64,000 nt of DNA from Mesorhizobium sp. NZP2077 (GTDB lineage: Bacteria > Pseudomonadota > Alphaproteobacteria > Rhizobiales > Rhizobiaceae): positions 372,001-436,000 of the forward strand of contig NZ_CP051293.1 in NCBI RefSeq assembly GCF_013170805.1, written 5' to 3'. Shown piece by piece: positions 31,011 through 33,816 of this stretch. The position numbers were made by a program, and so were the translations under genes. Each line of letters starts with the position of its first letter. Within the stretch, counting starts at the first letter, position 1. The notes under the pieces were generated by a model that was not told the DNA's origin, made no database searches, and saw nothing but the letters and a program-made list of their open reading frames with translations.

Positions 31011-31131
31011 GTTGGCGGCTCTGGCAACCGCCCCTTACTTCGGTTAGCCTCCGCAAATTCCTTGGCGGAGGATGAACCTTTTTGGACCGATCAGCGACAG
31101 AGCAGACAGGAGCCAGGCGGCTCGACCGGCC

Positions 31132-31698
31132 ATGACGGCAGCGACGGAGACCGATCGCGCGCTTGTCGACCGGGTCGCGAAGGGCGACCGTGCCGCCGTT
31201 CGGCTCCTGTTCATGCGTCACCACGCGCGGGTCTACCGCTTCGTGGTTCGCCAGACGGGATCGGAAATGATGGCTGACGATATCGCGAACGAAGTTTTCC
31301 TTGAACTGTGGCGACAGGCGCCTGGGTTCGAGGGACGCTCCGAAGTCTCGACGTGGCTGCTCGGCATCGCCCGGTTCAAGGCGCTGTCGCTGCTGCGCAA
31401 GAAAAAGGAAGACTGGATCGACGACGAGGCCGCCGCCGCGGTGCCCGACGGCGCCGACACGCCGGAGGTCGTCACGATGAAAGAGGACAAGGCCGCCGCC
31501 TTGCGCCGCTTCATTGACGCCTTGCCCGAAGAGCACCGCACGGTGATCGACCTTGCTTATTATCACGGACAGTCGGTGACCGAGATCGGCGAGGTGCTCG
31601 GCATCCCGGTCGCGACCGTCAAGACCCGGATGTTCTACGCCCGCAAGAAACTCGGCGAGGCCCTCAAGGCCGCCGGTTACGACAGGGGGTGGCCATGA
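31132..31698 (+). CDS. ECF RNA polymerase sigma factor
   Basis: 188 aa from the ATG at 31132. An upstream ATG at 31072 would add 20 unconserved residues; its GGAGG is only 0-1 base away, too close to serve, and is buried in a 7-bp stem (31048-31071). Region 2 is ALVDRVAKGDRAAVRLLFMR to ADDIANEVFLELWRQ. Region 4 is ALPEEHRTVIDLAYYHGQSV followed by TEIGEVLGIPVATVKTRMFY. It should redirect RNA polymerase to a small regulon, probably including its own operon. The anti-sigma gene overlaps it by 4 bases. Confidence 0.9.
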   Translation: MTAATETDRALVDRVAKGDRAAVRLLFMRHHARVYRFVVRQTGSEMMADDIANEVFLELWRQAPGFEGRSEVSTWLLGIARFKALSLLRKKKEDWIDDEAAAAVPDGADTPEVVTMKEDKAAALRRFIDALPEEHRTVIDLAYYHGQSVTEIGEVLGIPVATVKTRMFYARKKLGEALKAAGYDRGWP

Positions 31699-32381
31699 GT
31701 AATCCTGAAGATATGAGCGCCGCTGAAAAGATGTCGCGCCGCGACGAAATGGAAACGCTGCTGCCGTTCTATCTGAACGGCTCGCTAGAAGGCTCCGATC
31801 TCGAAGCCGTCGAGGAATGGCTGGCGACCGATCCGGCGGCAATGGCAGCCCTTGGCGAGGCCGAGGCCGAATTCTCCGGCACATCGGCCGCCAATGAAGC
31901 AGTCCGCCCGCCCGCCGATGCGCTCAGCCGCTTCGCTAGGGCGTTCGACGCCGAGGCTGGACCGGCACGCAAGCCGGCAGGCTCATCCTGGCTGGCGCAG
32001 GCCTGGGGCCGCTTCATGGCGGTGCCGGTCGGCGTCGCCTGGGCAGCGGCGGCGGTCCTGCTGGCGCTGATTGCGGTGCAGTCCCTGGTGCAGCCCGGCA
32101 GCAAGGGCAAGGATTTCGAGATCGCCGGAGCGGAAGACGATCTGGCGAAACTGCCGTTCGCACTGGTCAAATTCAAGCCGGATGCGAAGATGTCGGATAT
32201 TTCTGCATTCCTCGGCAGCAACGGGCTGAAGGTCATCGGCGGACCAACCGCCGACGGCATCTTCCGGCTTGCCATCCCCGCCACCAACGCGGCCGACTAT
32301 ACGAAGGAACTCGGCCTTATTGCCGCCCAGCCTTTCGCGGAGACTGTGATCGAGGGAAGGAAACCGGTTGATGGCGGCTGA
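31695..32381 (+). CDS. Anti-sigma factor, single-pass, zinc-ligand-less
   Basis: 228 aa from the ATG at 31695, which overlaps the sigma stop (ATGA). The N-terminal helical region ETLLPFYLNGSLEG and VEEWLATDPAAM follows the pattern of zinc anti-sigma domains, but the H-x3-C-x2-C ligands are replaced by W, D and A. One membrane helix lies at about residues 108-132 (VAWAAAAVLLALIAVQSLV). The outside domain (about 146-228: FALVKFKPDAKMSDI, FLGSNGLKVIGG, IFRLAIPA) resembles a subtilisin-propeptide-like fold and matches the pattern of the pro-region of the protease encoded next. It likely holds the sigma factor until an outside signal acts. Confidence 0.8.
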   Translation: MSNPEDMSAAEKMSRRDEMETLLPFYLNGSLEGSDLEAVEEWLATDPAAMAALGEAEAEFSGTSAANEAVRPPADALSRFARAFDAEAGPARKPAGSSWLAQAWGRFMAVPVGVAWAAAAVLLALIAVQSLVQPGSKGKDFEIAGAEDDLAKLPFALVKFKPDAKMSDISAFLGSNGLKVIGGPTADGIFRLAIPATNAADYTKELGLIAAQPFAETVIEGRKPVDGG

Positions 32382-33816
32382 GGCGGCCCTTCGATTTGCA
32401 GCGATCCTGGCAGTGGCGATGACAATCGCCGTGCCTGCGTCGGCGCAGAGCAAGGCCGCCAATGGCGACCAGACGAAAATCGACTGCCGCAACGGCACCA
32501 ACGCTGCCGGCGCCAACTGCGCCAAGGACGGCAACGGCGCCGGCGACAATGCCGGCGGTGCGGGGCCTGCCCAGGCCGGCGCCGTCTTTCTTCCCGCCCT
32601 GATCGTCGACCTGTTTCCCAACCCGGTCGCGCCCCCAGCACCGGCGCCGACACCACGACCGGAACCGGCGACGCCGCCCGGCAACAACCAGGCCGGCCCA
32701 CCGGCCGGCGGCCCGATCATTTCGCCGACCGATCTCATCGCAGTCCAGCCGCCGCGAGCCGTGACTGGCGATTTCGTGCCCGACGAGGTGCTGGTGACCG
32801 TCGACGGCGATGCCGGCGCCGTGCAGCAGATCGCCGCCTCCTTCGGCCTCGAAGTGCGCTCGCAGCGCCAGTCCCGCCTGCTCGGCACCACCTTGGTGCG
32901 CTTCGGCATTCCCGACGGCCGCCCCGTCGGCATCGTGCTTGCGCAGCTTGCCGCCGATGGCCGCACGCAACGGCGCGAAGCGAACCATATCTATTCGCTG
33001 CAGCAGGCCGCCGGCATCGTCAACTATGCCTTCGACCACATAACGCTCGACGCCAAACAGGCCAGCGGCGAAAACGTCCGTGTCGCCGTCATCGATACGG
33101 GCATCGACGACAGCAATCCGGCACTGGCCGGCGTCATCGCCGCGCAATTCGACGCCATGCCCGACGTGCCGATTGAAAAGCGCGACCATGGCACTTCGGT
33201 CGACGGGCTGATCGCCGGCGTCGGCGCACTGGAGGGGATGGCGCCGGGCGCCAGGATCTACCACGCCCGCGCCTTCGAAGGCGGCAAGTCGACCATGGAT
33301 GTCATCCTGTCGGCACTCGACTGGGCGGCGGAGCAGAATGTCAGCATCATCAATATGAGCTTCGTCGGACCGAAGAACGATCTGCTCGGCGCCGCCTGCC
33401 GCAATGCCCGTGCGCTCGGCATCGTACTGGTCGCCGCCGCCGGCAATAACGGGCCTAAGGCGCCTTACGGCTATCCGGCTGCCTTCGACGGCGTGATCGC
33501 GGTGACCGCCACCGACGCCAAGGACGGGCTGATGCCGCAGGCCAATCGCGGCGCCTATGTCTTCATCTCGGCGCCCGGCGTCGAGATGGTGGCACCGAGC
33601 GGCGCCGGCTCGGACGTCGTTACCGGCACGTCTTTCGCCGCGGCGATCGTCAGCGGCGCTATCGCCAACCTCATCCATGCTTCGCCCGGCCGCACCGCCG
33701 ACGATATCGAGAAAGCGCTTTCGGCGACGGCGAAGGATTTGGGGCCTAAGGGGCGCGACAATGATTTCGGCTATGGACTGCTGGACCTCAAGGCGGCGGA
33801 GGCGGCGAAAGAGTAG
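32371..33816 (+). CDS. Secreted S8 family (subtilisin) serine protease
   Basis: 481 aa from the ATG at 32371, overlapping the anti-sigma gene by 11 bases. Layout: signal peptide about 1-25 ending PASAQ; a Gly/Asn then Pro-rich linker (about 30-115); a pro-region at about 135-205 (FVPDEVLVTVDGDAG, SFGLEVRSQ, LVRFGIP); and the peptidase domain from about 235. The triad is D242 (VAVIDTGIDD), H273 (RDHGTSVDG) and S421 (VTGTSFAAA), with oxyanion Asn in AAAGNNGPKAPYGYP. It is exported to the periplasm or beyond. Overlap with the sigma/anti-sigma pair suggests that it is a target, an effector or the signal protease of that switch. Confidence 0.92.
   Translation: MAAEAALRFAAILAVAMTIAVPASAQSKAANGDQTKIDCRNGTNAAGANCAKDGNGAGDNAGGAGPAQAGAVFLPALIVDLFPNPVAPPAPAPTPRPEPATPPGNNQAGPPAGGPIISPTDLIAVQPPRAVTGDFVPDEVLVTVDGDAGAVQQIAASFGLEVRSQRQSRLLGTTLVRFGIPDGRPVGIVLAQLAADGRTQRREANHIYSLQQAAGIVNYAFDHITLDAKQASGENVRVAVIDTGIDDSNPALAGVIAAQFDAMPDVPIEKRDHGTSVDGLIAGVGALEGMAPGARIYHARAFEGGKSTMDVILSALDWAAEQNVSIINMSFVGPKNDLLGAACRNARALGIVLVAAAGNNGPKAPYGYPAAFDGVIAVTATDAKDGLMPQANRGAYVFISAPGVEMVAPSGAGSDVVTGTSFAAAIVSGAIANLIHASPGRTADDIEKALSATAKDLGPKGRDNDFGYGLLDLKAAEAAKE

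Follow-up and report, generated by a model that had tools for sequence, protein, structure and literature searches.

The 64,000-nucleotide stretch of Mesorhizobium sp. NZP2077 DNA analyzed here (contig NZ_CP051293.1, positions 372,001 to 436,000; hereafter, the window) carries on its forward strand the genes for an extracytoplasmic function (ECF) sigma factor (31132..31698, 188 aa), an anti-sigma factor (31695..32381, 228 aa) and a secreted S8 protease, or subtilase (32371..33816, 481 aa). The anti-sigma factor is composed of a cytoplasmic anti-sigma domain, one transmembrane helix and a propeptide-like outside domain, which is, as indicated by profile comparison, very probably homologous to the propeptide of subtilases. 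The present report deals with this domain and with its possible relationship to the protease encoded next to it.

Organization of the gene trio

The three overlapping genes described in the first-pass annotation, a model reading of the sequence alone, were borne out by their coordinates, the sigma and anti-sigma genes overlapping by 4 bases and the anti-sigma and S8 genes by 11 bases from the ATG at 32371, or by 14 if the TTG at 32368 is the start. The sigma factor was assigned to NF009168/PRK12515 with 294.9 bits against a cut-off of 236 (E 1.9e-88), and Sigma70_r2 and r4_2 also matched. The closest named relatives are from Mesorhizobium, with an identity of up to 95% for the anti-sigma protein.

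The protease matched PF00082 with 144.3 bits (E 6.3e-42), its catalytic domain spanning residues 233-469 (33067..33777, forward strand), and the triad of D242, H273 and S421 was invariant in 30 S8 proteins. Its best match in the Protein Data Bank (PDB) was pro-subtilisin E (3whi_B, E 3.6e-24). A signal peptide at about residues 1-25, as judged by eye, is followed by a proline-rich linker to about residue 130 and a propeptide domain at about residues 134-212 (32770..33006, forward strand; pLDDT 93-97 for 141-210), where PF22148, the subtilase prodomain family of the fervidolysin N-terminal type, aligned to residues 130-178 with 17.5 bits, below its cut-off of 21. With its catalytic domain, its Asp/His/Ser triad and the layout of a secreted pro-enzyme (the signal peptide being read by eye), the protein is an S8 subtilase.

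The anti-sigma protein has the features of a class I ECF anti-sigma factor (ASDI), as its gene adjoins and overlaps its ECF sigma gene and its N-terminal helical anti-sigma domain is homologous to known ones. Residues 22-91 aligned with a set of RpoE6-type anti-sigma factors at Prob 94.8 in hhalign, and zf-HC2 matched 19 of 32 anti-sigma relatives at E <= 1. The NCBIfam models NF052375 (residues 22-138) and PRK13920 (residues 18-127) matched the window protein weakly, below cut-off, and no Pfam family matched it at E <= 1. The helical pattern beginning with LLPFYLNG, which had been pointed out earlier, was found to be conserved in relatives, and the reported loss of the zinc ligands H-x3-C-x2-C was also correct, the motif being absent from the window protein. 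Among 80 anti-sigma proteins, including that of the window, the motif was present in 20, one from the same class and 19 from other classes of the phylum. Because 19 of the 20 carriers come from other classes, the absence of the motif is, as read from these sequences, a lineage trait. The excerpt of PMC7406223 states that the motif is missing in about 44% of class I anti-sigma domains and, given this proportion, the zinc-less state of the present anti-sigma factor is not special.

The transmembrane helix was placed at about residues 112-133 (32028..32093, forward strand) by reading the sequence, with a predicted helix at 115-131. It is followed by a juxtamembrane F-E-I-A-G (32115..32129, forward strand), a candidate site-1 cut region that resembles a Y/F-x-T-A-S-G-like motif recurring between the transmembrane helix and the outside domain of relatives. 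A regular expression for this motif, which was set post hoc, matched 41 of 69 S8-linked proteins (two being contig-end cases) versus 1 of 10 non-linked proteins. As the expression was post hoc and kinship was uncontrolled, the motif is not claimed as proof of a cut site.

Similarity of the outside domain to subtilase propeptides

The propeptide-like domain occupies about residues 152-220 of the anti-sigma protein (32148..32354, forward strand), close to the chain end at residue 228, and is supported by structure prediction (pLDDT 89-95), Foldseek, hhalign and PF22148 matches in homologues. Strands were predicted at residues 155-160, 179-182, 189-193 and 215-220 and helices at 166-175 and 199-210, and in the pro-region of the protease, the strands were predicted at 135-144, 161-168, 173-179 and 199-210 and the helices at 148-158 and 186-196. 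Both domains are, hence, predicted to have the beta-alpha-beta-beta-alpha-beta topology, which matches that of solved propeptides. The common pattern of strands and helices noticed in the first-pass annotation is, thus, supported by the predicted structures as well as by profile alignment. When the anti-sigma model was searched against PDB by Foldseek, subtilase propeptides or pro-enzymes took ranks 1, 2, 4, 9, 20, 26 and 32, with prob 0.97-1.00, and the outside domain is predicted to have the subtilase-propeptide fold.

Profile-profile comparison provides the sequence evidence that separates homology from a merely common fold. An hhalign comparison in which the profile of 34 anti-sigma domains was aligned to that of 31 S8 pro-regions, from which two fragmentary S8 sequences (L101 and L107) had been dropped, gave a score of 33.1 and a P of 7.8e-6. 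When both whole proteins were supplied, the best local match paired residues 156-221 of the anti-sigma factor with residues 140-205 of the S8 protease (P 6.5e-4). With gap columns removed, the score was 26.5, whereas 200 column shuffles reached no more than 19.0 and reversal of one profile gave 11.9 and 11.8. In a wider set of 75 domains and 63 pro-regions, where the domains were those of the 80 that scored 30 or more against profile A4 (itself built from 44 of 46 domains), the P was 5.4e-5 and the score was 23.7, the highest of 150 shuffles being 19.9, a narrower margin than in the first set.

Pfam matches pointed in the same direction. At E <= 1, PF22148 was found in 8 of 32 anti-sigma factors, with a best E of 6e-6 and with the homologue L180 above the curated cut-off (24.7 bits versus 21), and in 13 of 30 partner S8 proteins (best 2.5e-7). 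Of the Pfam families matched by the anti-sigma set, only the zinc finger was more frequent. The window anti-sigma protein itself had no curated PF22148 match in Pfam at E <= 1. A sequence search for solved relatives of the domain returned no propeptide, its best results being short helix matches to designed repeat proteins, and a search of 66 S8 proteins with the domain-profile hidden Markov model yielded fragments only (best domain E 0.0094). Taken together, the profile alignments and Pfam matches indicate that the outside domain is very probably homologous to the subtilase propeptide.

Linkage of the domain to S8 genes

The linkage between the domain and S8 genes was surveyed in 219 genomes of the order Rhizobiales, with an anti-sigma profile threshold of E < 1e-11 and with an S8 place counted as linked if it lay within 3 kb. 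The profile matched 65 places, of which 59 had an S8 place within that distance. As for the others, the place in G050 completes a linked gene as its second part (both contigs share an identical 99-base end), the S8 gene runs off the contig directly past the anti-sigma gene in G227 and G159, and contig edges are close in G129 (970 bases left), G186 (236) and contig C280 of G073 (about 340). The total for the order, over 65 loci, was 61 linked, three at contig ends and one unlinked (L171). The domain and a linked S8 gene co-occur in the order almost without exception, and the linkage is near-obligate. By contrast with these loci, none of 24 weaker hits, which cover mainly the anti-sigma domain and the transmembrane region, had an S8 place within 3 kb as judged by eye among at most the best six S8 candidates per genome. 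The reverse linkage was looser, with 9 of the 64 strongest S8 hits lacking such an anti-sigma gene nearby.

This linkage bears on the simplest explanation, namely an ordinary sigma/anti-sigma operon with a protease gene, in which two small alpha/beta domains would match by chance. The topology is common among small domains, and this speaks for such a match; we consider the explanation very improbable in view of the profile statistics, the Pfam matches on both sides and the near-obligate linkage. Chance as the source of the resemblance itself was rejected on the basis of the shuffles, the reversals, the Pfam matches on both sides and the linkage.

A further 50 loci were classed, five of which (L169, L170, L171, L183 and L184) are from the same order, leaving 45 outside it. 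These loci came from class, phylum and other-class surveys, from which 15, 15 and 20 were taken, respectively, chosen mainly for profile coverage; L185 and L186, which by eye resemble serine hydroxymethyltransferase, were discarded, and another five weak hits from the same family, f198, were left out. An S8 gene was present within 2.5 kb in 35 of the 45 loci.

Second close S8 copies, all in family f20, were also observed without this anti-sigma gene nearby among the surveyed hits, at G055:C1:4445419, G129:C37, G156:C2:631376, G180:C5, G201:C81 and G239:C9.

A second S8 clade and RpoE6-type systems

Twenty loci with weaker S8 hits were examined as well. An ECF-type sigma gene was present in 18 of them, divergent from the S8 gene in 16 (L134-L149) and convergent in L110 and L111; L108 and L109 had no ECF-type sigma gene. 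In 14 of the loci, the sigma gene is followed by an anti-sigma-like open reading frame (ORF), whose outside domain is of another kind, carries conserved cysteines and had no profile match to S8 in hhalign. The outside domain of the present anti-sigma family, in turn, did not match the second S8 clade (P 0.068). A trio of this clade is located at 77.4-80.3 kb of Sinorhizobium meliloti pSymA (L246), its S8 protein matching the profile of the second clade with an E of 5e-168, and we infer that it corresponds to SMa0142-SMa0144, the record being unannotated there.

According to the excerpt of PMC6180224, rpoE6 has the divergent serine protease gene SMa0142, the expression of which is raised by RpoE6 overexpression; such a divergent protease gene is widely conserved in the group ECF26, the activation mechanism of which the same excerpt calls hypothetical. 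The RpoE6/EcfR6/SMa0142 system of S. meliloti is similar to the present one in that an ECF sigma factor, a single-pass anti-sigma factor and a related S8 protease are encoded side by side. It differs in that the S8 gene is divergent there and same-strand and overlapping here, and in that its anti-sigma factor has a cysteine-containing outside domain. The presence of a propeptide mimic at every S8/ECF neighbor was ruled out, as the RpoE6-type anti-sigma factors have another outside domain.

A possible mechanism of sigma factor release

From the sequence relationships and predicted structures described above, we consider the chances about even that the co-encoded subtilase uses the tethered propeptide as its docking site and cleaves the anti-sigma factor, releasing the sigma factor. 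The membrane-spanning anti-sigma factor would hold the ECF sigma factor inside the cell and display a relative of the subtilase propeptide outside at its C-terminus. The mature secreted S8 protease may bind this tethered propeptide as propeptides bind their enzymes, and the binding would park the protease on the membrane near the linker between the transmembrane helix and the domain. Free active protease would then cut the linker (site 1), site-2 and Clp proteolysis would free the sigma factor, and the latter would transcribe its own operon and the genes of a few secreted or membrane proteins. In a wider form, to which we give slightly less than an even chance, a secreted protease has lent its propeptide to the exterior of the anti-sigma factor and acts as its own sensor, in an arrangement widespread in proteobacteria, and in other classes of the phylum the chassis has acquired a secreted caspase-like protease as its new partner.

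Several observations weigh against this proposal, at least in its strict form. In VIA-align, Lrp/RAM folds were level with or above propeptides, and other ferredoxin-like folds matched by Z. The weaker hit in G128 (L171, E 3.4e-8) has the domain, and an S8 gene was not found nearby. Outside the order, five loci pair the anti-sigma gene with a caspase-like protease, PF00656 (Peptidase_C14) being present in each; the caspase gene is directly beside the anti-sigma gene in L176, L202 and L205, with an overlap of 4 bases in L176 and L205, and is 2.0 kb away in L177 and 2.6 kb away in L175. Neither protease was found in L162, L196, L200 and L206, also from outside the order, and L204 is at a contig end. 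The loci that have the domain and lack an S8 gene amount to ten, five with a caspase-like protease and five with neither protease. Furthermore, the related second S8 clade adjoins an ECF/anti-sigma pair whose outside domain has no propeptide match. The caspase pairings are the main evidence against a strict mimic, as they agree better with a general rule that the protease is encoded next to the anti-sigma factor it targets than with one under which the domain can be bound by S8 enzymes only. Accordingly, the idea of propeptide mimicry put forward in the first-pass annotation stands as far as the propeptide-like nature of the outside domain is concerned (predicted fold, profile homology and PF22148), and the S8-less loci and the caspase pairings speak against its strict form; the co-occurrence of the domain and the S8 gene is near-constant in the order (61 of 65), whereas the observation that the annotation had named as refuting its idea, the domain without a linked S8 gene, was made in a minority, namely in L171 and 9 of the 45 outside loci.

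The caspase-like proteases of L175, L176, L177, L202 and L205, loci which come from other classes of the phylum, look secreted by eye. At L171, a long ORF with glycine/aspartate repeats (L171:4422-7499), RTX-like by eye, adjoins the S8-less anti-sigma locus.

The same observations lend some support to the view that the domain is a generic ferredoxin-like sensor or dimerization domain and that the S8 gene is just a member of the regulon, the site-1 cut being made by a DegS-like protease. The ranking of Lrp/RAM folds, the occurrence of the domain with caspases or without either protease, the unrelated outside domain of the other ECF pair that related S8 proteins adjoin, and the response of SMa0142 to RpoE6 overexpression (excerpt of PMC6180224) are all in line with it. 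This view is, however, unlikely, because PF22148 is the second commonest Pfam family in the anti-sigma set and also matches the partner S8 proteins, and because the profile alignment, with all 481 residues of the protease to choose from, singles out the pro-region.

The C-terminus lies no more than 13 residues past the domain profile in 72 of 80 anti-sigma proteins. In subtilases, the same point is the end of the propeptide and the start of the mature enzyme, and propeptides bind their enzyme and keep it inactive until they are cut. It is conceivable, then, that the domain is a propeptide relative that controls the protease, serving as a membrane-tethered inhibitor or folding helper, and that the sigma factor is released by ordinary site-1 proteases. 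The position of the chain end is as expected for an inhibitory propeptide, and stand-alone propeptide-like proteins are described as inhibitors of neighboring subtilases, as in the case of Plasmodium SUB1-ProM (excerpt of PMC6993865). On the other hand, fusion to an anti-sigma factor in almost all genomes that have the domain would not be required of a pure inhibitor, and five relatives carry the domain together with a caspase-like protease. A domain that only restrains the protease is a serious alternative in our analysis, and we rate it as rather improbable, if marginally less so than a generic domain.

Release of the sigma factor by the co-encoded subtilase would have parallels in known systems. 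In the E. coli RpoE/RseA/DegS/RseP system, the membrane anti-sigma factor is cut stepwise to free the sigma factor (excerpt of PMC8103513), as is proposed here; the differences are that a subtilase from the same operon is the candidate for the site-1 cut and that the outside domain is propeptide-like. SUB1-ProM is likewise a propeptide-like protein with the propeptide fold that is encoded beside subtilisin genes (excerpt of PMC6993865) but, as with other trans-acting propeptides such as POIA1 (structure 1itp), it is a stand-alone inhibitor and not part of an anti-sigma factor. For the caspase-paired relatives, the CRISPR system Csx29/Csx30/CASP-sigma offers a comparison, in which the inhibitor of a sigma factor can serve as the target of a co-encoded protease of the caspase clan; that system is RNA-activated, and the excerpt of PMC10028731 mentions no membrane anti-sigma factor or propeptide domain. 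Subtilase domains are also conserved in the ECF context of ECF54, which has subtilase/CHAT neighbors (excerpt of PMC8999054).

No description of a propeptide-bearing anti-sigma factor was found in the open-licence literature, the main ECF classification paper lying outside that range, and S8 may already be listed there as part of the conserved context of this ECF group. S8 genes next to ECF pairs have been described before; the new element is the propeptide on the anti-sigma factor. In many ECF systems, the identity and the cue of the protease that makes the first cut are still open. In the present case, the operon itself encodes the likely protease and the anti-sigma factor carries a putative docking domain, and the question is therefore reduced to a simple two-protein assay. 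If the proposal is true, a domain that normally serves protease maturation has taken on the role of a receptor, and there is a mechanism for a system present in several classes of Pseudomonadota; through the caspase-paired versions, secreted caspase-like enzymes would join the possible site-1 proteases.

Promoter and predicted regulon

A predicted ECF promoter, TGAACC-N16-CGAC, precedes the operon (31073..31098, forward strand) and was identified by conservation in relatives, TGAACCTTTT and GCGAC being at least 95% conserved across 89 different upstream sequences from close relatives. The motif was present upstream of 22 of 71 related sigma genes, compared with 1.5 expected from mononucleotide shuffles, and 21 of these 22 instances were TGAACC-N16-CG[AT]C; it was found at none of 27 sigma genes from other classes. 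Because this conserved ECF-type promoter precedes it, the operon looks self-activated, and the protease and the anti-sigma factor probably belong to one regulon.

In its own genome, TGAACCTTT-N13-CGWC occurred five times, versus none for the reversed control. Among ten Mesorhizobium genomes, the eight that have the operon (its own, G001-G004 and G007-G009) have 3-5 sites each, and G005 and G006, which lack the operon, have no sites. G037 and G040, without an anti-sigma match, have a single site each, and the reversed control gave one match each in G006 and G038. A single additional target outside the operon was well supported. This second target, conserved in all eight operon genomes, is a large secreted protein, which had no Pfam match and is followed in the operon's own genome by a DUF7929/DUF11 protein (locus L212:2258-4495 and L212:1-2247; about 718.5-723.0 kb of that genome).

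A conserved predicted membrane protein of 50 residues was also observed to start 110 bases past the promoter motif in three of L209, L238, L239 and L243, and a longer related ORF takes its place in L243. In the genome of the window, this small protein adjoins a gyrA-like sequence, named by eye.

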